Assembly: GCF_020179405.1 (NCBI RefSeq)
Contig: NZ_JAICBZ010000006.1
Coordinates: forward strand, 1 to 64,000
Source: Xinfangfangia pollutisoli
GTDB taxonomy: Bacteria; Pseudomonadota; Alphaproteobacteria; Rhodobacterales; Rhodobacteraceae
Direction of reading: 5' to 3'
DNA: 64,000 nt
Shown here: piece after piece, positions 29,516 through 41,481 of the stretch
Layout: every line of letters starts with the position of its first letter
How positions within the stretch are numbered: position 1 is the first letter of the stretch
Position numbers and translations under genes: made by a program
Notes under the pieces: model-generated
What the model saw: only the letters and a program-made list of their open reading frames with translations
What the model was told of the DNA's origin: nothing
Database searches by the model: none

Positions 29516-29995
29516 TCAGTCCGCCACCGCCACCCGCCCGAACTTGCCGCTGCAAAACAGCAGCGGCTCGCTGTCATCGCGCCGCTCCAGATGCAGGACG
29601 CGGCCGATGAACAGCGTGTGGTCGCCCGCCTCGACCTCTTGCGCGACCTCGGTCACGAAGGTCGCCGCCGCATTGGGCACCACCGGCAGGCCGTGGCGGT
29701 CTTCAAGGATAGTTGCCAGGTCTGCGTTATGGCGGCCCGCGAAATGCCAGGCGACATGTTCCATGTCATGGGCCAAGACGCTGACGGCATAGCGTCCCGA
29801 GGCGCGGATGCGGTCGCGCATCTTGCTTTTGTGATCCAGCGAGACGGTGATCAGCGGCGGGTCAAGCGAGACCGACATGAAGGCATTGGCGGTCATGCCG
29901 TGATCGCCGGTCTCGGTGCGCGTGGTGATGACGGTGACGCCGGTGGCAAAACCGCCGCAGGCATTGCGCAGGTCGCGCGGGTCAATTCCAGACAT
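29516..29995 (-). CDS. Flavin reductase component of a two-component monooxygenase (HpaC-like)
   Basis: 159 residues of the FMN-binding split-barrel family: LRNACGGFATGVTVIT near the N-terminus, SLDPPLITVSL and a C-terminal GDHTLFIGRV with LFCSGKF. It should use NAD(P)H to make free reduced flavin for the oxygenase at 30693-32246. The ATG at 29995 overlaps the end of the FAD synthetase gene by 14 bases. Direction and spacing indicate an oxygenase-FAD synthetase-reductase operon. Confidence 0.85.
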   Translation of the reverse strand: MSGIDPRDLRNACGGFATGVTVITTRTETGDHGMTANAFMSVSLDPPLITVSLDHKSKMRDRIRASGRYAVSVLAHDMEHVAWHFAGRHNADLATILEDRHGLPVVPNAAATFVTEVAQEVEAGDHTLFIGRVLHLERRDDSEPLLFCSGKFGRVAVAD

Positions 29996-30611
29996 CGTGA
30001 TCGTCCTTGTGGCGGATATCGGTTGTCGAAAGCGCCGCGCCCAGCATCTGCCAGGGGGGCGGGGCCGCCAGAAGGGCCGCGGCCTCATCATGCGCGCCGG
30101 CGGCCCGCAAGGCCCTGATCCGGCTTGACGAAATCGTCTCGCCCGCGCAGCAGCAGGTGGGCTTCGCCTGCGCGAGCGCATAATGCCGGGCAAGCAGCGC
30201 GACATCGCCGGATTGCTTTGCGCCAAAGCGGAAATCGGCGCCGACATGGATGCGGGCGGGTGCGATGCGGGCCAGATCGGCGATGAAATCCGCCGCGCTG
30301 CGGCCGGCGTAGCGCGTGGTGAAGGGGGCGACGACGATCCAGTCCGGCCCAAGGGCGGCGATCCGCGAAAGCTTCTCGCCAAGCGGCATCAGCCGCGCCG
30401 CGCGCCCGAAATGCACCTTGGGCGGCGGGTCAAAGGTCCAGACCACCGCCGGAAGGCGGCGCTCGGCGGCCTCGGCCACCGCGGCCCGGATCAGATCCTG
30501 ATGGCCGCGATGAACGCCGTCAAACGCCCCCACCGCCACCACACTTGCCGCCAGCGCGATTTGCCGGTCGGTGACGACACGCCGTTTCTCACCGCTGAAA
30601 TCAAGCCCCAT
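29982..30611 (-). CDS. Kinase-less FAD synthetase (RibF N-terminal domain only)
   Basis: 209 residues matching only the FMN adenylyltransferase half of RibF: GAFDGVHRGH (residues 28-37), VGADFRFG (123-130) and ISSSRIR (160-166). The riboflavin-kinase domain of about 120 residues is missing, and the gene ends naturally inside the flavin reductase start. It would convert FMN to FAD. The start at 30611 is preceded by AGAAGG at proper spacing; the ATG at 30620 is too close to it. Lying between oxygenase and reductase, it probably supplies FAD for the pair. Confidence 0.8.
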   Translation of the reverse strand: MGLDFSGEKRRVVTDRQIALAASVVAVGAFDGVHRGHQDLIRAAVAEAAERRLPAVVWTFDPPPKVHFGRAARLMPLGEKLSRIAALGPDWIVVAPFTTRYAGRSAADFIADLARIAPARIHVGADFRFGAKQSGDVALLARHYALAQAKPTCCCAGETISSSRIRALRAAGAHDEAAALLAAPPPWQMLGAALSTTDIRHKDDHDVWN

Positions 30612-30692
30612 GTTGACCATCCTTCTGGCCCAGTCTTCTGTCCGGAAACGGGGGCGGGGCGCTTGCGGCCCCGCCCCCGAGGTCGACCTGTC

Positions 30693-32246
30693 TCAGCCCT
30701 GGAACCCGGCCTTGAGGCGGTTCACATCCCATGGATTGATCAGGTCGGGGGAGGTCCATCCGGTCAGGTCATATTCCGACATGTAGTCGCGCACGGTCTG
30801 ATGCAGCATCTCCATCTCGCCGGTCGCCTGGGCGGTCAGCATGGTCTCGATGCGGATGTTTTCGTAATTGCCGGCATAGTTGGTTTCATACAGCTCATGC
30901 CGCCCGCCGAATTCCGACCCCAGCGCATCCCAGAGAAGTTTCAGCAGCTTCACCCGGTCCAGCGCCACCATACCGTTCGATCCGCGCACGAACCGTTCCA
31001 GATAGGGGCGCACCGCGTCGGATGCGAAATCCAGCGCCGAGGACGGCAGGTAGATCAGCCCCGAGGCGACGTTGCGCTCGATCAGTTCCTTGATGCGATT
31101 ATAGGCCATCGGCGCGAAGATCCGCGAGGCGAGGCCGTAGTTCATGTTCGGCAGCACATAGCCGTCGGTGCCGGCCCAGGGGACCGGGCTTTTCACCATC
31201 GCATCCGAAAAGGCCCAGAACATGTTGCGCCAGCCAAGCACCTCGCCCACCGCCGTTTGCGGGCCGCGGAAGGCGCCCGAGCCGGTGGCCTCCAGCGCCA
31301 GCGAGAAAAGGCCTGCGATGAAGTCCAGCTTTACCGCCAGCCGGGTTGCCCCATGCAGCGTAAAGCGCGGCACGAACCCCGACGCCGGGAAGAAGGCGTT
31401 GATCTTGGCGATATCGCCATAGATGAAGATATTCTCCCAGGGCACCAGCACCTTGTCGAACACCAGGATGGCGTCATTCTCATCGGCGCGCGACGACAGC
31501 GGATAGTCGAAGGGCGTACCCATCACCGCGGCGTTCAGCTCGTAGCTGGCGCGGCTGATCAGCTTGACGCCCGAACTGTCCATCGGCGCGGTGAAGATCA
31601 GCGCGAATTTCTTCTCTTTGATCGGAATGCCGTAATGCGCGATGAAGTTGCAATGGGTCAGCGCCGACCCGGTGGCGACCACTTTCGCGCCCGAGACGAT
31701 CAGCCCCGCATCGGTTTCCTTCTCGACCTGCATATAGACATCGCCGGTTTCCTCGATCGGCAGGTGGCGGTCGATCGGCGGGTTGACGATGGCATGGTTC
31801 CAGTAATCCAGCCGTTCCTGGGTGCGGGCATACCAGGCTTTGGCATTGCCGGCATATTCGCCGTAGAATTCGGAATTCGCGCCCAGCGTGCCCAGAAACG
31901 CCGCCTTGTAATCGGGCGAGCGGCCCATCCAGCCATTCGCCACCTTCTGCGTGGCAGCAATGGCGTCGCGGCCCGCGATCAGATCTTCGGTGGTTTTCGC
32001 GCCCTTGAAGAAGGGATGCGTCCACCCGCCCGACCCGGTATCGGTGGGCCGGCCCAGCGTGGCTTTCTCGGCATTCAGCCGGTCATACCAGCGCGCCACC
32101 ATCCGGGCCGAGTTGCGGAAGGCCGGATGCGTGGTGACATCCTTCACCCGCTCGCCATGGATGTAGATTTCGCGATTGTCGCGGATGCTGTCGAGAAATT
32201 CGGCGCCCGTATAGGGGGTCCGGGTGATGGTGGTCTGGTCTTTCAT
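30693..32246 (-). CDS. FAD-dependent phenolic ortho-hydroxylase, large component (HpaB/PheA1 family)
   Basis: 517 residues of the 4-hydroxyphenylacetate 3-hydroxylase family (acyl-CoA dehydrogenase-like fold), recognisable from [21 protein letters not shown] at the start, the central [14 protein letters not shown] and the C-terminal [32 protein letters not shown] segment. The enzyme uses reduced FAD from the linked reductase. Because catechol 1,2-dioxygenase genes follow, phenol to catechol (as in PheA1/PheA2 systems) is as likely as 4-hydroxyphenylacetate. AGGGAGGAAGCG precedes the ATG. It is divergent from the IclR regulator, with two inverted repeats between. Confidence 0.85.
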
Positions 32247-32356: not shown

Positions 32357-32386
32357 GTGGCCGTGCAAGGGGCAGGGGAGGGCCGC

Positions 32387-33127
32387 GTGAAAACGATCCG
32401 CAAACTGGGCGAGGTGCTGCGCTGTTTCACCGCCGATCATCCGGAACACAGCGTCACGGCGCTGTCGCGCATCATGCAGAACTCTGTCAGCGGCACCCAT
32501 GATCTGGTGGACGGACTGGCGGCCATCGGGCTGTTGCGCAAAAGTTCGCGCGGGCGGTATCGCTTGGGCCCGCTGGTCGCGACGCTGTACCACGCGCTGG
32601 AAGACAGCTCGTCCCTGGTCGAGGCCGCCCGCCCGGTGATGGCGCGGCTGGCCGCCGAGCATCGCGAGACGCTGCATCTGACCATGCACGACCACGGCCG
32701 GCTGTTGCTGGTCGAGGCGATGGATGGCAACCGCCCGCTGCATGTCTCGACCAATGTGCTGGGTCCGCATGTCGCGCTGAACCAGGCGCCGCCGGGGCGG
32801 CTGCATCTGGCCTCGTTCAGCCCGGCGCGGCTGGGGCTGTGGCTGAATGAACATTGCCGCTCTGGCGGCGGGGTCGATTGCCGCGCCCGGCTGACCGAAG
32901 ACCTGGCGCGGATCGCGGCCGAGGGCTTCGACAGCGGCCCGATCGGCGAGGATGAAGACCTGATCTGCCTTGCCGCAAGGGTTTGCGATCATGCGGGCCG
33001 GGCGGTGGCGGTCCTGTCGATGACGGTGCCCGAAGGCCGGCATGCCCGCCAGCCCCGCGCCTTCCGATCGGTTACGGTCGAGGCCGCGCAGCAGATCTCT
33101 GCCCGTCTGGGCTACAAGCCGGGCTAG
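32387..33127 (+). CDS. IclR-family transcriptional regulator
   Basis: 246 residues: N-terminal winged helix ([24 protein letters not shown]... [15 protein letters not shown]) and a C-terminal effector domain with [19 protein letters not shown]. The GTG at 32387 is chosen for the strong GGGGAGGG upstream. Divergent from the hydroxylase operon, which it probably regulates in response to an aromatic effector (PcaR/PobR-type IclR proteins act this way). Its last three bases overlap the end of the convergent LysR gene. Confidence 0.85.
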
Positions 33128-34026
33128 GCACAGGCATTCTGTCCCAGCCGCACGAATTTCCGCGTGGTCTCCATGAAATTCACCACCTGCGGCGCGCGAT
33201 TGTCCAGCCGTGAATGCACCGTCAGCGCGGTGCCGGGATTGTGGCCGCCATAGGGGCGGAACACCACACCGGGGCGCGTGGTATTGCTGACCGATTCCGG
33301 CACCACCGACAGCCCGACCCCCACCGACACCAGCGAGATCGCGCTTTGGAAATCCTGGGTCAGTTCCAGATTGGCGGGCTTCACGCCCTCTTTCTCGCAG
33401 ATCGACAGCACCAGATCGGCATAGCCCGGGCGGGGGCGCCGGGGATAGAGGACGAAGTTCTGCCCGCTCAGATCGGCAAAATGCACCTCGCGCTGCGCGG
33501 CGAGCGGCGAGTTGTCGGGCAGGGCCAGGATCAGGCGTTCGCGGTACAGAAGCTCGCGGCGGAATTCGTCATCCTTCAACTCGGGGCGCGCGACCGCGAT
33601 GTCGATTTCGCGGGTGATCAGGGCGCGGTGCAATTCGGCATTGTTCATCGCCGACAGCGCCAGCTCGACCTCGGGGTAGCTGGATCGGTAGGCTTTGATC
33701 AGCATCGGCAGCAGCCCATGCGAGGCCGATCCGACAAAGGCGATGCGCAGCCGACCGGCGCCGCCCGCCCCCACCAGCTGGGTCTCGCGCCGCGCCGCAT
33801 CCAGCCGCTCGATCAGCTGCCGGGCGTGGTCCTGCAGCACCAGCCCGGCCTGGGTCAGCCGGATCTGGCTGCGGCTGCGGTCGAACAGCTGCACGCCCAG
33901 ATCCTCTTCCAGCGCGGCGATCTGGCGCGACAAGGGCGGCTGCGCCATATCAAGGCGCGTGGCGGCGCGGCCGAAGTGCAGTTCTTCGGCGACGGCAAGG
34001 AAGTACTTGAGCTGCCGGAATTCCAT
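33124..34026 (-). CDS. LysR-family regulator, BenM/CatM-like (first copy)
   Basis: 300 residues with the LysR winged helix (FLAVAEELHFGRAATRLDMAQPPLSRQIAALEEDLG) and an effector domain with FVGSASHGLLP, characteristic of the BenM/CatM branch that senses benzoate or muconate. GGGAGGAG precedes the ATG. A GGTAT-N6-ATACC site lies about 100 bases upstream, as in the hydroxylase promoter, so one regulator may control both. Confidence 0.85.
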   Translation of the reverse strand: MEFRQLKYFLAVAEELHFGRAATRLDMAQPPLSRQIAALEEDLGVQLFDRSRSQIRLTQAGLVLQDHARQLIERLDAARRETQLVGAGGAGRLRIAFVGSASHGLLPMLIKAYRSSYPEVELALSAMNNAELHRALITREIDIAVARPELKDDEFRRELLYRERLILALPDNSPLAAQREVHFADLSGQNFVLYPRRPRPGYADLVLSICEKEGVKPANLELTQDFQSAISLVSVGVGLSVVPESVSNTTRPGVVFRPYGGHNPGTALTVHSRLDNRAPQVVNFMETTRKFVRLGQNACA

Positions 34027-34162: not shown

Positions 34163-35071
34163 CTAGTCGCGCTCCATCCAGGGCGGGGCGCTTTCGATGA
34201 TCTCGGCAAGCAGATCCTGCACCATGGAAAGCCAGGGCGAGGTATCGCCGGCGCGGTGGCTGACGATCACCGGCGACACCGCGCGCGGGTCTTCGATCAG
34301 GCGAAACTGCAGATCCGCCCGCATCTGTCGCGCCGAAGCCGGGATGATGCACAGCCCCGCCGCCGCCGCGACCAGGCCAAGCGCGGTCTGGATCTCGCGC
34401 ACCTCCTGCACCTCGCCCAGGCGGATATCGGCCTCCTGAACCAGGGTCAGCACCTGATCGGCATAGCTGGGGCGCGGCTCTTTCGGATAGACGATCAGCT
34501 TTTCCCCGCTCAGCGCCGAGAAGGGCAGCGTCCCGCTTTCGCGGCCCAGGGGCGAATCCGGCGGCACGGCCAGCGCAAGCCGTTCCTCATAGATCACGGT
34601 GCTGGTCACCCCCGGATCGCTTTGGCGCAGGCGCCCGAAACCGATATCGATCCGGCCCTCTTTCAGCGCCGGGATCTGCTGCACCGACAGCAGTTCAAGC
34701 AGCTGGATATCCAGATCCGGCATCTTCTGGCGCAGTTTGCGCACCAGAACCGGCAGGCCGCCGTAAAGGGTCGAGGCGACAAAGCCGATGGAAAGAACCC
34801 GGTTCTGGTTCAGCCCGACGCGGCGCGTCGCGGCTTGCATCTGCTCCACCCGGCCCAGGACCTGCAACGCATGTTCATGGAACAGCCGCCCGGCATCGGT
34901 CAGCCGCACCGGGCGGCTGTTGCGCAGCACAAGCGGCACGCCCAGCTCTTCCTCCAGCAGCTGGATCTGCCGGCTCAGCGGCGGTTGCGCGATGTTCAGC
35001 ATCTGCGCGGCGCGGGTGAAATTGCGCTCCCGCGCCACCGCCACGAAATAGCGCATCTGCCGAAGATCCAT
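34163..35071 (-). CDS. catR: LysR-family regulator of the catechol branch (CatR/CatM-like)
   Basis: 302 residues: N-terminal helix-turn-helix (NFTRAAQMLNIAQPPLSRQIQLLEEELG) and effector domain with FVASTLYGGLP and EPRPSYADQVL. It is divergent from catB, and the intervening 122 bases contain ATAC-N7-GTAT, the published BenM/CatM recognition form. Family members activate cat genes with cis,cis-muconate as inducer. About 35-40% of residues look shared with the neighbour at 33124-34026, suggesting an old duplication (estimate by eye). Confidence 0.87.
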   Translation of the reverse strand: MDLRQMRYFVAVARERNFTRAAQMLNIAQPPLSRQIQLLEEELGVPLVLRNSRPVRLTDAGRLFHEHALQVLGRVEQMQAATRRVGLNQNRVLSIGFVASTLYGGLPVLVRKLRQKMPDLDIQLLELLSVQQIPALKEGRIDIGFGRLRQSDPGVTSTVIYEERLALAVPPDSPLGRESGTLPFSALSGEKLIVYPKEPRPSYADQVLTLVQEADIRLGEVQEVREIQTALGLVAAAAGLCIIPASARQMRADLQFRLIEDPRAVSPVIVSHRAGDTSPWLSMVQDLLAEIIESAPPWMERD

Positions 35072-35136: not shown

Positions 35137-35174
35137 CGCATCAAATGCAAATGATCTTGGACGCCCGTGGCGGC

Positions 35175-35193
35175 GGCCCGCATGATGCGGGCC
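35175..35193 (+). promoter_or_regulatory. Hairpin ending at the catB start codon
   Basis: Nine-base arms (GGCCCGCAT/ATGCGGGCC) around a single base, ending exactly before the ATG at 35194. If transcribed it would bury two in-frame upstream ATGs and the ribosome-binding region. Confidence 0.5.
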
Positions 35194-36372
35194 ATGAACC
35201 AGACCCTCACATCCCACCCGCAGGGCAGCATCCCGGCCAGCGGCATCCGTGTCGACCGCGTCGAGACGCTGCTTGTCGATCTGCCGACGATCCGGCCGCA
35301 CAAGCTTTCGGTTGCGACGATGAACGGCCAGACGCTGATGCTGGTCAAAGTGACCTGCTCGGACGGCAGCATCGGGATCGGCGAGGGCACGACGATCGGC
35401 GGTCTCGCCTATGGGGCGGAAAGCCCTGAAAGCATGAAGCTGGCGATCGACACCTATTTCGCGCCGCTGATGATCGGCCAGGATGCAGGCCGGGTTCAGG
35501 CGCTGATGGCGCGGATCGGCAAGATGGTCAAAGACAACCGCTTTGCCAAAAGCGCCGTCGAGACCGCGCTGCTGGATGCTCTGGGCAAACGCTGCGGCCT
35601 GGCGGTCAGCGAGCTGCTTGGCGGGCGCCAGCGCAACCGTCTGCCCGTCGCCTGGACGCTGGCCTCGGGCGATACCGCGCGCGACATTGCCGAGGCCGAG
35701 ACGATGCTCGACCTGCGCCGCCACCGGATCTTCAAGCTGAAGATCGGGGCAAAGGCCCTGCGCCAGGACATCGCCCATGTCGCCGAGATCAAGCGCGCGC
35801 TGGGCGAACGCGCCGCCGTGCGGGTCGATGTGAACATGGCCTGGAACGAGGTCGAGGCGGCCTGGGGCATGGCGGCCCTGGCCGATGCCGGCTGCGAGCT
35901 GGTCGAGCAACCCGTCGCCACCGCCGCGGGCCTGTCGCGGCTGGTGCGGCGGTTCCCGGTTGCGCTGATGGCGGATGAATCGATCACCGGGCCGGACTCG
36001 GCCTTCGAGATCGCGCGCGTGCATGGCGCCGATGTGTTCGCGATCAAGATCGAGCAGAATGGCGGGCTTTTCGCCGCAGGCCGCACGGCGGCGATTGCCG
36101 ATGCCGCGGGGATCGGCCTTTACGGCGGCACCATGCTGGAAGGCGCGCCGGGCACCGTGGCCGCGGCGCATCTTTTTGCCACCTTCCCGCGGCTGGACTG
36201 GGGGACCGAGCTTTTCGGCCCGCTGCTGCTGACCGAGGAAATCCTGCAGGATCCGCTTGATTACAGCGATTTCGAGCTGACCGTGCCGAATGGCCCCGGA
36301 CTGGGGATCGCGCTGGACGAGGATCGCGTGGCCTTCTTCGCCCGCGATGGCTTTGCCCGCAAATCCATCTGA
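35194..36372 (+). CDS. catB: Muconate cycloisomerase
   Basis: 392 residues of the enolase superfamily. Catalytic KxK (Lys181, Lys183) lies in FKLKIG; metal ligands are Asp212 (VDVNMAW), Glu238 (VEQP) and Asp261 (ADES); the general acid/base lysine is Lys285 (AIKIEQNGG). N-terminal LLVDLPTIRPHKLSV is typical of CatB. It converts cis,cis-muconate to muconolactone. ATGs at 35182 and 35185 are also possible starts. First gene of catB-catC-catA. Confidence 0.93.
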   Translation: MNQTLTSHPQGSIPASGIRVDRVETLLVDLPTIRPHKLSVATMNGQTLMLVKVTCSDGSIGIGEGTTIGGLAYGAESPESMKLAIDTYFAPLMIGQDAGRVQALMARIGKMVKDNRFAKSAVETALLDALGKRCGLAVSELLGGRQRNRLPVAWTLASGDTARDIAEAETMLDLRRHRIFKLKIGAKALRQDIAHVAEIKRALGERAAVRVDVNMAWNEVEAAWGMAALADAGCELVEQPVATAAGLSRLVRRFPVALMADESITGPDSAFEIARVHGADVFAIKIEQNGGLFAAGRTAAIADAAGIGLYGGTMLEGAPGTVAAAHLFATFPRLDWGTELFGPLLLTEEILQDPLDYSDFELTVPNGPGLGIALDEDRVAFFARDGFARKSI

Positions 36373-36744: not shown

Positions 36745-37683
36745 ATGACCGTCAAGATCTTCGACCGCCCAGATATCCAGGACTTCCTCAAGACGCTGAG
36801 CGGGCTGGACAATTCGAAAGGCAATGCGCGGATGAAAGAGATCACGCATCGCCTGATGTCGGATCTGTTCAAGGCCATCGACGATCTGAACATCACGCCC
36901 GACGAATACTGGACCGGCATCGCCTGGCTGAATGATATCGGGGCGGCAGGGCAGGCGGGGCTGATCTCGCCCGGGCTGGGGCTGGATCACTTCATCGACG
37001 AACGGCTTGATGCGATCGACGCGGCGCTTGGCATCGACAACCCGACGCCGCGCACCATCGAGGGGCCGCTTTATGTGGCCGGCGCGCCGGAATCGGTGGG
37101 CTTCGCGCGGCTTGACGATGGCCGCGATCTTGATGGCCAGACGCTGATCATGCATGGCGTGGTGCATGACGCCGACAAAAAGCCGCTGCCGGGCGCGAAG
37201 GTCGAGGTCTGGCATTGCGACACCCGGGGCTTCTATTCGCATTTCGACCCGACCGGCATCCAGGCGCCGTTCAACATGCGCCGCACCATCATCGCCGATG
37301 AAAACGGCCGCTACAAATTCCAAAGCATCCTGCCTTCGGGCTATGGTGTTCCCCCGGGCAGCCCGACCGAGCGGCTCTTGTCCTCGCTTGGCCGTCACGG
37401 CCAGCGCCCGGCGCATATCCATTTCTTCGTCAGCGCGCCGGATCACCGCAAGCTGACCACCCAGATCAACATCGAGGGCGACCCGCTGATCAATGACGAC
37501 TTCGCCTATGCAACTCGCGAGGGCCTGGTGCCCAGCGTCAAAGAGCGCAGGGATGAGGAAAGCATCCACGCGAACGGCCTGAACGGCCCCTTCGCCGAGA
37601 TCGAGTTCGACATCTTCCTGACGCCGCTGATTGACGGTGTCGACAACCAGGTGAACGAGCAGCGCAAACGCGCCGCCGCCTGA
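36745..37683 (+). CDS. catA: Catechol 1,2-dioxygenase (intradiol)
   Basis: 312 residues. The Fe(III) ligands fall at the classical positions: Tyr164 (RGFYSHF), Tyr200 (LPSGYGVP), His224 and His226 (RPAHIHFF), the same numbering as in Acinetobacter CatA. An N-terminal helical linker domain (residues 1-100) mediates dimerisation. It cleaves catechol to cis,cis-muconate. GGAGGAG precedes the ATG, 69 bases after catC. Confidence 0.96.
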   Translation: MTVKIFDRPDIQDFLKTLSGLDNSKGNARMKEITHRLMSDLFKAIDDLNITPDEYWTGIAWLNDIGAAGQAGLISPGLGLDHFIDERLDAIDAALGIDNPTPRTIEGPLYVAGAPESVGFARLDDGRDLDGQTLIMHGVVHDADKKPLPGAKVEVWHCDTRGFYSHFDPTGIQAPFNMRRTIIADENGRYKFQSILPSGYGVPPGSPTERLLSSLGRHGQRPAHIHFFVSAPDHRKLTTQINIEGDPLINDDFAYATREGLVPSVKERRDEESIHANGLNGPFAEIEFDIFLTPLIDGVDNQVNEQRKRAAA

Positions 37684-38833: not shown

Positions 38834-39778
38834 ATGCGGATTGCAGTTCTGGGCGCTGGGGCCATGGGCTCGGTCTTCGGGGCGCGGCTGGCGCTTGGCG
38901 GGGCGAAGGTCACGCTTCTTGACGTGAACGCGGCGCATCTGGCGGCGATTGCCGCGCGGGGCCTGATCGCGGATCTGGACGGAACCGAACATCGCCTGCC
39001 CCTTGCGGCGATGACGCCTGCCGATTTCACCGGCCCGGCGGATCTGGTCCTGTTGTTCACCAAGGTATTCCACACCGACGCCGCGCTGGGCGCCATCAAG
39101 GGCGCGCTGGGCGATGCGATGGTGCTGACCTTGCAAAACGGCATCGGCAATGCCGAAAGGATCGCCGCGCATCTGCCCGCAGACCGGGTGATCCTTGGTC
39201 TGACCATGACGCCGGCCGAATTTCTCGCGCCCGGCCGCGTGGCCTCGCATGGGGCGGCGACGACCCGTTTCTACAGCGCCGACGGCCAGGCCCGCCCGAT
39301 CCTCGATGATCTGGTCGCGGTCATGCGAAAGGGCGGGATCGACGCGAAGGCCGACCCCGAGATCCAGGCCGCAATCTGGGAAAAGGCCGCGTTCAACTGC
39401 GCGATGAATGCGATCTGTGCGCTGACTGACGGCACGCCCGGCGGCATCGGTGCGCTGCCCGAGGCACTGACGCTGGCGCAAGATACCGCCGCCGAGGGCA
39501 TCGCCGTGGCCCGGGCCAGCGGCATTGCCGCCAGCGGCGAACGTGTCCGCGCCCTGATCGACCATGCCGCCGCGCATCACCTGCTGCACGCGCCCTCGAT
39601 GCTGCAGGACCGCAAGGCCGGGCGGCGCACCGAGATCGACGCGCTGAATGCCGCCATTGCCGAGCGGGGCGCGGCGCTTGGCATTCCCGTTCCGATCAAC
39701 CGCATGCTCACCACCCTTGTGCGGCTGGCAGAAGCCATGCCCGCCTACCGCCAGAACACCGCCGGAGCCCGCCCATGA
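38834..39778 (+). CDS. Ketopantoate reductase-family (PanE/ApbA-like) 2-keto acid reductase
   Basis: 314 residues with the Rossmann motif GAGAMGSVFG at the N-terminus, the LLFTKVFHTDAAL segment, and the C-terminal helical domain with EKAAFNCAMNAICALTDG. PanE makes pantoate, but this copy is operon-linked (ATGA overlap, 39775-39778) to a ThDP-dependent decarboxylase-like gene, so reduction of another 2-keto or branched substrate in aromatic metabolism is more probable. GGGGGAGGA precedes the ATG. Confidence 0.75.
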   Translation: MRIAVLGAGAMGSVFGARLALGGAKVTLLDVNAAHLAAIAARGLIADLDGTEHRLPLAAMTPADFTGPADLVLLFTKVFHTDAALGAIKGALGDAMVLTLQNGIGNAERIAAHLPADRVILGLTMTPAEFLAPGRVASHGAATTRFYSADGQARPILDDLVAVMRKGGIDAKADPEIQAAIWEKAAFNCAMNAICALTDGTPGGIGALPEALTLAQDTAAEGIAVARASGIAASGERVRALIDHAAAHHLLHAPSMLQDRKAGRRTEIDALNAAIAERGAALGIPVPINRMLTTLVRLAEAMPAYRQNTAGARP

Positions 39779-41481
39779 CCGACAGCCAGATCACCGCAGG
39801 CGCCGCGATTTTCGGCAAGCTCAAGGCGCTTGGCGTCGAGCATGTGCTGGTCAATTCCGGCACCGACTTCCCGCCCATCGTCGAAGGTCTGGTCGAGGCC
39901 GGGCGGCGCGCGATCAGCCTGCCGACACCGGTGATCTGCCCGCATGAAAGCGTCGCGCTGGGCATGGCGCATGGCTATTACCAGGTCTCGGGCAAGATGG
40001 CGGCGGTGATGCTGCACACGAATGTCGGCCTTGCCAATGGCGCGATGGGGGCGATCAACGCCTGGTGCGACCAGATCCCGATGCTTCTGATGTCGGGCCG
40101 CACGCCCGTCACCGAAAGCCGCCGATTTGGCGCCCGCACGGTCCCCATCGGCTGGGGGCAAGAGATGTATGACCAGGGCGCGCTGGTGCGGGAATGCACG
40201 AAATGGGAATATGAACTGCGCTTCCCCGATCAGGTGCCAGAGGTTCTGGACCGCGCTTGCGCCATCGCGCAATCGGTGCCCAAAGGCCCGGTCTATCTGT
40301 GCCTGCCGCGAGAGGTTCTGTGCGAAACGCTGGGCGCCGAGGGGCTTGATCAGCCGTCGCGCATGGTGCCCGTGGTGCCGGCGCCCCAGCCTGAAGCGCT
40401 GGAACGCGCGGCCCAGCTTCTGGCGGGCGCAAAGGCGCCGCTGATCATTGCGCAGCGCGGTGCGGGCAGCAGCGAAGCCTTTGCCGCCTTTGACGCATTC
40501 GTCACCCGCCATGCGCTGCCGGTGTCGCAATACTGGGCCAATACGCCGGCGCTTCGGCTGGCGCATCCGATGCATATCGGCGCGAACCCCGATGCCGCCC
40601 TGGCCGCGGCCGATGTGGTCCTGGTGATCGACTCGCTGGCGCCCTGGTGGCCCGACCATGTCACGCTGCGCCCGGATGTGCAGGTGATCCAGCTTGGCCC
40701 CGACCCGCTGTTCAGCCGCACGCCGATCCGCAATTTCCCCGCGCATGTGACCCTGCCGGGCGAAACCGGCCCGACGCTGATGGCGCTGATCGAGGCCGTC
40801 GACCGCCAGCCCCGCGACGAACCCGCGCTGGCCGCCCGCAGGGAGGCCACCGCGCGCATCTCGGCCGCCAACCGCGCGGCGCTGAGCGCGCTTGCCGAAC
40901 GCGGCAATGGCAGCCCGATGACCAAGGCCTATGTCGCGGATTGCCTGGGCCGCGCGATCAAGGGCCGCAAGGCCAGCGTCTTCCATGAACTGGGCTGCCC
41001 GCTGCAGCATCTCGATCTCGAGGACCATCTGAGCTATTTCCAAGAGCCGCATTCCGGTGGCCTGGGCTGGGGTCTGCCGGCCGCGCTTGGCGCGCAGCTG
41101 GCCGACCCGGACCGGCTGGTGATCGCGACCATGGGCGATGGCAGCTACATGTTCGCCAACCCGACCGCCTGCCACCAGGTCGCCGAGGCGCATGACTTGC
41201 CCGTTGTCGTGCTGGTCCTGAACAATGGCGAATGGGGGGCGGTGCGGCAATCGGTGCTGGGGCTTTACCCGCAGGGCGTGGCGAAACAGGCCAATGAGGT
41301 GCCGCTGACCAGCCTTAAACCCAGCCCGGATTTCACCCTGACCGCCGCCGCCAGCCGCGCCTGGACGCAGACGGTCACCGATGGCGCCGACCTGCCCGCC
41401 GCGCTGGCAAAGGCGATCCGCATCGCGACCGAAGACCGCCGGCAGGTGCTTTTGAACATCGCGATCAGCCCCGACGCCTAG
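39775..41481 (+). CDS. ThDP-dependent 2-keto acid decarboxylase-like enzyme (benzoylformate decarboxylase/acetolactate synthase family)
   Basis: 568 residues: N-terminal Pyr domain with the activating Glu58 in PHESVALG, a His in LHTNVGLANG (as the BFD active-site His), a central Rossmann-like domain, and the PP domain with GDGS from about residue 454 and the paired NN 26 residues on. The fold covers acetolactate synthase, benzoylformate and phenylpyruvate decarboxylases. Location among aromatic genes, together with an MdlB-like gene at 62613-63758, suggests benzoylformate or a related 2-keto acid, but this is inference. Confidence 0.75.
   Translation: MTDSQITAGAAIFGKLKALGVEHVLVNSGTDFPPIVEGLVEAGRRAISLPTPVICPHESVALGMAHGYYQVSGKMAAVMLHTNVGLANGAMGAINAWCDQIPMLLMSGRTPVTESRRFGARTVPIGWGQEMYDQGALVRECTKWEYELRFPDQVPEVLDRACAIAQSVPKGPVYLCLPREVLCETLGAEGLDQPSRMVPVVPAPQPEALERAAQLLAGAKAPLIIAQRGAGSSEAFAAFDAFVTRHALPVSQYWANTPALRLAHPMHIGANPDAALAAADVVLVIDSLAPWWPDHVTLRPDVQVIQLGPDPLFSRTPIRNFPAHVTLPGETGPTLMALIEAVDRQPRDEPALAARREATARISAANRAALSALAERGNGSPMTKAYVADCLGRAIKGRKASVFHELGCPLQHLDLEDHLSYFQEPHSGGLGWGLPAALGAQLADPDRLVIATMGDGSYMFANPTACHQVAEAHDLPVVVLVLNNGEWGAVRQSVLGLYPQGVAKQANEVPLTSLKPSPDFTLTAAASRAWTQTVTDGADLPAALAKAIRIATEDRRQVLLNIAISPDA

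Follow-up and report, generated by a model that had tools for sequence, protein, structure and literature searches.

Why should the operon of a two-component aromatic hydroxylase carry its own flavin adenine dinucleotide (FAD) synthetase, and why one without the kinase half? The question is raised by a stretch of 64,000 nucleotides from Xinfangfangia pollutisoli (contig NZ_JAICBZ010000006.1, positions 1 to 64,000; hereafter the window), in which a gene for a 209-residue protein lies between the genes of an HpaB-type oxygenase and a flavin reductase. Two-component FAD monooxygenases are usually treated as an oxygenase and a reductase that draw on the general FAD pool. We propose that the 209-residue protein is probably a dedicated flavin mononucleotide (FMN) adenylyltransferase (FMNAT) that serves the hydroxylase, with its FADH2-specific oxygenase, by increasing FAD relative to FMN. 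Published work is cited below for the passages used.

The open reading frames and a Pfam scan (E ≤ 0.001 for the window proteins, E ≤ 0.05 for relatives and for the second RibF of this genome) confirm what a sequence-only reading had described: a protein with only the FMN adenylyltransferase half of RibF, placed between oxygenase and reductase and overlapping the reductase gene by 14 bases (Table 1). The HpaB and synthetase genes are separated by 81 bp on the minus strand. An alternative in-frame ATG at 30620 would give a synthetase of 212 residues; the start that gives 209 residues matches the Sphingobium homologue. Among seven relatives compared, the synthetase and reductase genes also overlap by 14 bp in P. 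yeei, Agrobacterium and Marinibacterium, by 8 bp in Sphingobium and by 4 bp in Sagittula and Bradyrhizobium, while Xanthobacter has a 30 bp gap. A GGAG/GAGG-type site precedes the reductase start in six of the seven; none is evident in Bradyrhizobium, and that of Xanthobacter is located within the gap. With both the HpaB_N and HpaB domains in the oxygenase and a short-chain flavin reductase encoded nearby, the system has the gene make-up of a group D two-component hydroxylase (HpaB/PheA1). The best solved relatives of the oxygenase are 4oo2 and the HpaB entries 6qyh/6eb0, and the nearest solved relative of the reductase is PheA2 of Geobacillus (1rz0, phenol 2-hydroxylase component B, E = 7.7e-40). 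Assignment of the oxygenase to the TIGR02310 equivalog (4-hydroxyphenylacetate 3-monooxygenase) was rejected, as it scores 663.6 bits, under the cut-off of 885.2. The host genome contains a single HpaB match.

Pfam finds FAD_syn and no Flavokinase in the window synthetase, and no Flavokinase is found at E ≤ 0.05 in four short and four long operon-borne relatives. The G.PT.N motif of the kinase occurs in none of 28 operon synthetases and in 34 of 39 housekeeping proteins, an imperfect marker in that it misses five of the latter. The FMNAT module with the HxGH and SST/SxxR motifs of FADS-type I (RibF) enzymes is present; lacking PF01687 and the PTAN motif of the kinase, the protein is not a bifunctional member of that class. 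An AlphaFold2 model shows the FMNAT module fold with a mean predicted local distance difference test (pLDDT) score of 88 and a low-confidence tail at residues 194–208, and the best solved matches of the predicted fold are the FAD synthetases of C. ammoniagenes (CaFADS), S. pneumoniae and T. maritima. Residues His34, His37, Asp126, Ser161, Ser162 and Arg166 are conserved. Both histidines of HxGH and both serines of the SS motif are retained in all 39 short and all 23 long operon synthetases, and the arginine in 38 of the 39 short ones (one has a gap) and in 23/23 long ones. Judged from these residues, an inactive relic is unlikely.

Membership of the CTP_transf_like superfamily allows for a nucleotidyltransferase acting on another substrate, for example an aromatic intermediate, and the short synthetases bear marks of their own, GAFDG and TFDPPP, against GNFDG and PHP as the commonest housekeeping forms; in the latter pair, Pro stands in 36/39 short-clade proteins at a site occupied by His in 33/39 housekeeping ones. 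The positions that form the isoalloxazine pocket of CaFADS (Phe62, Tyr106 and Phe128; PMC7279473), however, keep an aromatic residue, with Phe in 22, 24 and 24 of the 24 short synthetases, and we regard a change of substrate as very improbable.

The operon synthetase is not the only ribF of the organism. The genome, which is 99.8% complete, has two FAD_syn matches, and the second belongs to a bifunctional RibF of 311 residues (locus L001; FAD_syn 148.9 bits, Flavokinase 135.4 bits). An FMNAT module alone, next to a separate FADS-type I in the same genome, is the make-up of a monofunctional bacterial FMNAT. The claim that the operon has a dedicated, kinase-less enzyme separate from the housekeeping one is supported by the second ribF, by the conserved FMNAT residues and by co-occurrence across genomes.

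A search for the same gene order had been named in advance as a check, and it finds recurrent HpaB–synthetase neighbours. In a survey of the family with one genome per genus (295 genomes), a close synthetase (at least 53% identity and at least 170 bits; the next match scores 83.6 bits) is present in seven, the present genome included, and these are exactly the seven with an HpaB of at least 74% identity; in all seven the two genes are neighbours. Two family genomes with an HpaB of 50–51% have full-length RibF only, and neither HpaB nor this reductase occurs in the flanks (up to 1.5 or 6 kb) of 128 other RibF loci. Among the plasmid matches listed (the best 60 of 168 and 40 of 85 records, near-identical plasmids included), all 15 records with an HpaB of at least 75% carry the synthetase, several of them near-copies, and at least four of the other 45 (HpaB at most 64%) have such a synthetase close by, two in Pseudonocardia and two in Priestia. 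In 199 Rhizobiaceae genomes (the family of Rhizobium mayense), a synthetase accompanies four of the five HpaB loci of at least 72%, or three of four without G677, which was found via its synthetase.

For the Bacillales (the order of Fictibacillus) 397 genomes were searched, 200 had a match and 60 HpaB loci were fetched: 32 near-full-length matches with at least 55% identity to the Priestia HpaB and 28 of the many weaker ones, sampled with gaps in order of rank, excluding partial matches in G1100, G1180 and G1239. A synthetase gene is found within about 9 kb in 35 of the 60, namely in 9/14 loci at 66% identity or more, 16/18 at 55–59% and 10/28 at 31–37%. Locus L225 (G678) was set aside, having been found via its synthetase; with it the first group becomes 10/15. 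All 33 synthetases that are seen whole lack the kinase motif and none is kinase-bearing; L320 (134 residues) and L327 (208 residues; a member of the short clade) are cut by the edge of their stretches, so that absence of the kinase cannot be judged. Absence was judged by motif, and ten long synthetases from two HpaB groups were also scanned with Pfam, none giving Flavokinase at E ≤ 0.05. In L318 the synthetase is on the strand opposite to HpaB, and in L275, L291, L327, L320 and L332 the distance is about 6 kb or more. As a rough estimate, with one or two such genes in a 4 Mb genome, one would fall within a 19 kb stretch in about 1% of cases. The pairing of HpaB and synthetase is not due to chance.

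Searched from the side of the synthetase, the class (385 genomes) gives nothing listed above 135.2 bits besides the window (344.5 bits), although it also has a few short open frames, e.g. in G401, G566 and G664. Among the 80 loci listed by a scan of contigs for synthetases, four hold short synthetases and the rest mostly housekeeping RibF.

These distributions bear on whether the gene is a roleless ribF fragment that merely travels with the operon. The module is often plasmid-borne, many HpaB loci do without a synthetase and the synthetase diverges fast, all of which a hitchhiker would explain. It would not explain the exact co-occurrence over the family survey, FMNAT residues that are intact over two phyla, the excess of third-position over first- and second-position change in every gene pair compared or separate recruitments without the kinase, and its probability is small indeed.

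The evidence for separate recruitment comes from the trees. The short synthetases, 177 to 236 residues by open frame and longer where the frame extends upstream, form one clade of 39 (support 100/96) that spans Alphaproteobacteria and Bacilli. The Bacillales HpaB group at 55–59% pairs with longer synthetases, 279–352 residues by open frame and without the kinase motif; 18 long synthetases form a clade (100/98) that groups with the housekeeping RibF of Bacillaceae (96/94). The Pseudonocardia synthetase groups with Gordonia (98/84) among the RibFs of actinobacteria. The alignment shows the GRELGFPTAN stretch to be lost in Pseudonocardia, Arthrobacter, Variovorax and Peribacillus, together with the region of the catalytic glutamate of the kinase (Glu268 in CaFADS; the site was placed by our own reading of the alignment). 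In approximately unbiased (AU) tests, single clades are rejected for the 28 operon synthetases of the first tree (p = 0.00035), for short plus Bacillales-long synthetases (p = 7e-5) and for short plus Pseudonocardia (p = 6e-11). Pseudonocardia, Arthrobacter and Variovorax as one clade give p = 0.016, on long branches, and Peribacillus could fit within the short clade (p = 0.32), although it stands apart in the larger tree. As some of the groups were defined once a tree had been seen and several rows have long branches, these p values are guides only. Taken with that caution, the rejected groupings suggest that the operon synthetases belong to at least three lineages, recruited separately and in each case without the kinase.

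Kinase-less synthetases likewise accompany several deep HpaB subfamilies: on an HpaB tree of 55 rows, many of them chosen for the presence of a synthetase, the synthetase label needs five changes, at least three of them forced. This breadth, with genes that are adjacent and overlapping, could point to direct hand-over, in which the synthetase would bind one of its two partners, oxygenase or reductase, and pass on FAD unreleased, or act as an FAD-loading chaperone. In two Bacillus clusters, however, some 8 kb separate the synthetase from HpaB, and in Pseudonocardia it follows a dioxygenase gene; its fast divergence is unlike that expected of a tight interface, and PheA needs no interaction between oxygenase and reductase (PMC6165268). 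Hand-over therefore seems unlikely, although less so than the other alternatives considered here.

A dedicated supply of FAD would account for the kinase-less form. A stand-alone FMN adenylyltransferase would raise FAD at the cost of FMN, and a kinase would refill FMN. HpaB-type oxygenases use FADH2, as established for the family and for E. coli HpaB, so that more FMN would counteract the enzyme's purpose; conversion without refill would explain why the genes are linked and why the kinase half was lost repeatedly. The housekeeping RibF would make FMN and basal FAD. Phenol-type substrates would induce the operon, upon which the synthetase would convert FMN and ATP to FAD and pyrophosphate (PPi). 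The abundant reductase, accepting several flavins, would then mostly reduce FAD, the FADH2-specific HpaB would be charged and fewer electrons would be lost via FMNH2 and H2O2. We infer enzymatic activity, co-induction and the effect on FAD:FMN from sequence and gene order. In Geobacillus PheA2 FAD is tightly held and is also a substrate, while FMN and riboflavin are reduced at similar rates with three to four times lower affinity (PMC6165268); an induced reductase of this type would thus waste NADH on FMN unless FAD dominates.

Three effects had been offered for the enzyme, namely a higher local FAD level, avoidance of feedback on riboflavin kinase and hand-over to the oxygenase. The first fits best, and sequence cannot separate them. 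One feedback route is removed, since no FMN riboswitch (RF00050) is found in the host genome by a search that is positive in 7 of 14 control genomes. The same result leaves without its premise in this host the idea that lowering FMN releases an FMN riboswitch and so raises riboflavin synthesis; it would explain why the FMN-consuming half alone is retained, but we consider it extremely unlikely.

Several observations weigh against a dedicated FAD supply. The window protein has Asp at the position of CaFADS Asn125, where N125D abolishes forward FMNAT activity (PMC3509593). This Asp is also found in 32/39 short and 21/23 long synthetases, yet in 34/39 housekeeping RibFs as well, so natural Asp forms must be tuned differently. 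Its presence could be taken for a sign of an enzyme that works mostly in reverse (FAD + PPi to FMN + ATP) or recovers flavin nucleotides, and so supplies FMN or limits FAD, but the residue is normal in housekeeping RibFs and HpaB-2 family oxygenases are FADH2 enzymes, and this we hold to be highly unlikely. It is true that CaFADS does perform pyrophosphorolysis and that N125D keeps some of it (PMC3509593). The synthetase also diverges faster than its partners (between the window and Sphingobium it is 70% identical, HpaB 91% and the reductase 80%). No synthetase is found near any of 20 Rhizobiaceae HpaB loci of at most 59%, near 25 of the 60 Bacillales loci or at the R. opacus 1CP and Thermus HB8 loci. 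Rhizobiaceae genome G885 (L203) has a 72% HpaB without a synthetase nearby or a short one anywhere in the genome; this locus, either a natural loss or the original state, offers a comparison. R. erythropolis PheA2 has no tightly bound flavin (PMC6165268), and the window reductase could be of either kind. Finally, the kinase-less FMNATs listed in Listeria and Mycoplasma genomes among others (PMC2972280) mean that the type may not be bound to HpaB alone.

With so many HpaB systems lacking it, the dedicated synthetase would be an enhancer rather than a required subunit. The recurrence of such pairs in distant bacteria suggests that HpaB-type enzymes benefit from a private supply of FAD. A broader reading, which we put forward tentatively and at slightly less than even confidence, is that the kinase-less synthetase is a recurrent third component of HpaB systems, recruited at least three times as an FMN-to-FAD ratio switch and possibly for hand-over, so that these would really be three-component systems. 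If a private kinase-less FAD-maker is common, FAD supply, or competition and uncoupling by FMN, is likely to be a real cellular limit; such enzymes would be a ready-made part for hydroxylation biotechnology and would make it possible to test directly why the ratios of flavin nucleotides matter.

The oxygenase is predicted to act in the phenol-to-catechol step because genes for the conversion of catechol to muconolactone adjoin it (Table 1); by gene content, the cluster would lead from phenol via catechol and muconate to muconolactone. The IclR-type regulator is in the same place in Sphingobium, P. yeei, Sagittula, Agrobacterium and Marinibacterium. Downstream of the catechol genes, a ketopantoate-reductase-like gene is followed by that of a three-domain thiamine pyrophosphate (TPP) enzyme (window positions 38834–41481).

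Table 1. Features of the operon and its surroundings in the window, with related modules elsewhere.
Feature	Coordinates	Strand	Evidence
Short-chain flavin reductase, 159 aa from ATG	29516..29995	-	PF01613 (Flavin_Reduct) 141.8 bits
14-bp overlap, synthetase stop/reductase start	29982..29995	-	
Kinase-less FAD synthetase, FMN adenylyltransferase module only, 209 aa	29982..30611	-	PF06574 119.5 bits, no PF01687
Likely ribosome-binding site AAGGA of reductase, inside synthetase gene	30004..30008	-	read by eye
HpaB-type aromatic hydroxylase, oxygenase component, 517 aa	30693..32246	-	PF11794 268 bits, PF03241 201 bits
IclR-type regulator, divergent from oxygenase gene	32357..33127	+	PF01614
LysR-type regulator	33124..34026	-	PF03466/PF00126
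LysR-type regulator, BenM/CatM-like	34163..35071	-	best NCBIfam models BenM, CatM, both under cut-offs
Muconate/chloromuconate cycloisomerase	35167..36372	+	TIGR02534 542 bits, cut-off 335
Intradiol dioxygenase, catechol 1,2-dioxygenase type	36745..37683	+	PF00775 222.8 bits, PF04444 74.8 bits
IS6100-flanked LysR-IclR-HpaB-FAD synthetase-reductase modules	L033 4031-11233; L174 2201-9200		

Two IS6100 copies on the Sphingobium and Sphingopyxis plasmids enclose, among annotated genes, only those of this module (LysR, IclR, HpaB, synthetase and reductase; the plasmid gene table is incomplete). A Sphingopyxis terrae plasmid matches at two sites, the alignment of one being split in two, and may therefore hold a damaged copy beside an intact one. 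The nearby reductase of the Mesobacillus locus belongs to an unrelated family, FMN_red, and the synthetase is still kept; in Mesobacillus zeae (L226 4847-12604) HpaB is followed by the synthetase, the FMN_red reductase, a 3-hydroxyanthranilate-dioxygenase-like protein, an amidohydrolase, a RidA-like protein and an aldehyde dehydrogenase, perhaps an aminophenol-type meta-cleavage pathway. On a Peribacillus plasmid (L039 2185-11298) a kinase-less synthetase of 292 residues is surrounded by two HpaB genes, genes for two isochorismatase-family proteins and one for an Asp/Glu racemase. On a Variovorax sp. RA8 plasmid (L169 6956-14480) the kinase-less synthetase is 2–3 kb upstream of a reductase, HpaB, maleylacetate reductase and intradiol dioxygenase, a set like those for chlorophenol or hydroxyquinol.

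Compared with known systems, the window synthetase shares the FMNAT module, predicted fold and conserved residues examined with bifunctional FADS-type I (RibF/RibC; CaFADS 2x0k, TmFADS 1mrz), and differs from it in lacking the riboflavin-kinase module, in being bound to an operon and in being a second copy alongside the housekeeping gene. For a flavin-nucleotide enzyme that serves one two-component monooxygenase, the riboflavin-lyase operon offers a parallel, with its own flavin kinase and reductase; that kinase makes FMN, whereas the predicted adenylyltransferase of the window would make FAD. Plant AtRibF1 and AtRibF2 are RibF-type FMNATs without detectable kinase activity and are reported to work as FAD synthetases (cited in PMC2972280), but they are chloroplast-associated general enzymes with no tie to a monooxygenase. 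Bacterial classes of monofunctional FMNAT and FADS-type II (PMC2972280) and proteins with the 'N-terminal region only' (PMC2573891) likewise have an FMNAT without the kinase motif, partly in genomes that also have FADS-type I: five genomes combine FADS-type I with a monofunctional FMNAT and eight combine it with FADS-type II (PMC2972280). The lists in these two papers include Geobacillus thermodenitrificans NG80-2 and Arthrobacter chlorophenolicus A6, and in their main texts the words operon, context, monooxygenase and hydroxylase match only one reference title. The G. stearothermophilus plasmid phe operon has an oxygenase of 400 residues (PMC2590616), and the text describing it gives no match for riboflavin, FAD or adenylyltransferase. 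In the open-access literature, where most subscription papers are missing, we found no paper on a link between HpaB and a kinase-less synthetase. A comparable gene set is the chromosomal phenol locus PtPL of Parageobacillus thermoglucosidasius, for which ribF, sgcE6 (flavin reductase) and hpaB are listed next to each other (PMC8696081, Figure 8) and the sgcE6 and hpaB products are about 92–97% identical to the PheA two-component phenol hydroxylase of strain A7. Its ribF, compared here by annotation only, is annotated as riboflavin kinase/FMN adenylyltransferase, and the link is not discussed in the passages of that paper used. Already known, then, are ribF beside hpaB and reductase (PMC8696081) and, from 2008–2010, kinase-less bacterial FMNATs noted, in the passages used, without genomic context, for which the present operon suggests a role; it is ordinary in its parts, unusual in their combination and more general than one window shows.

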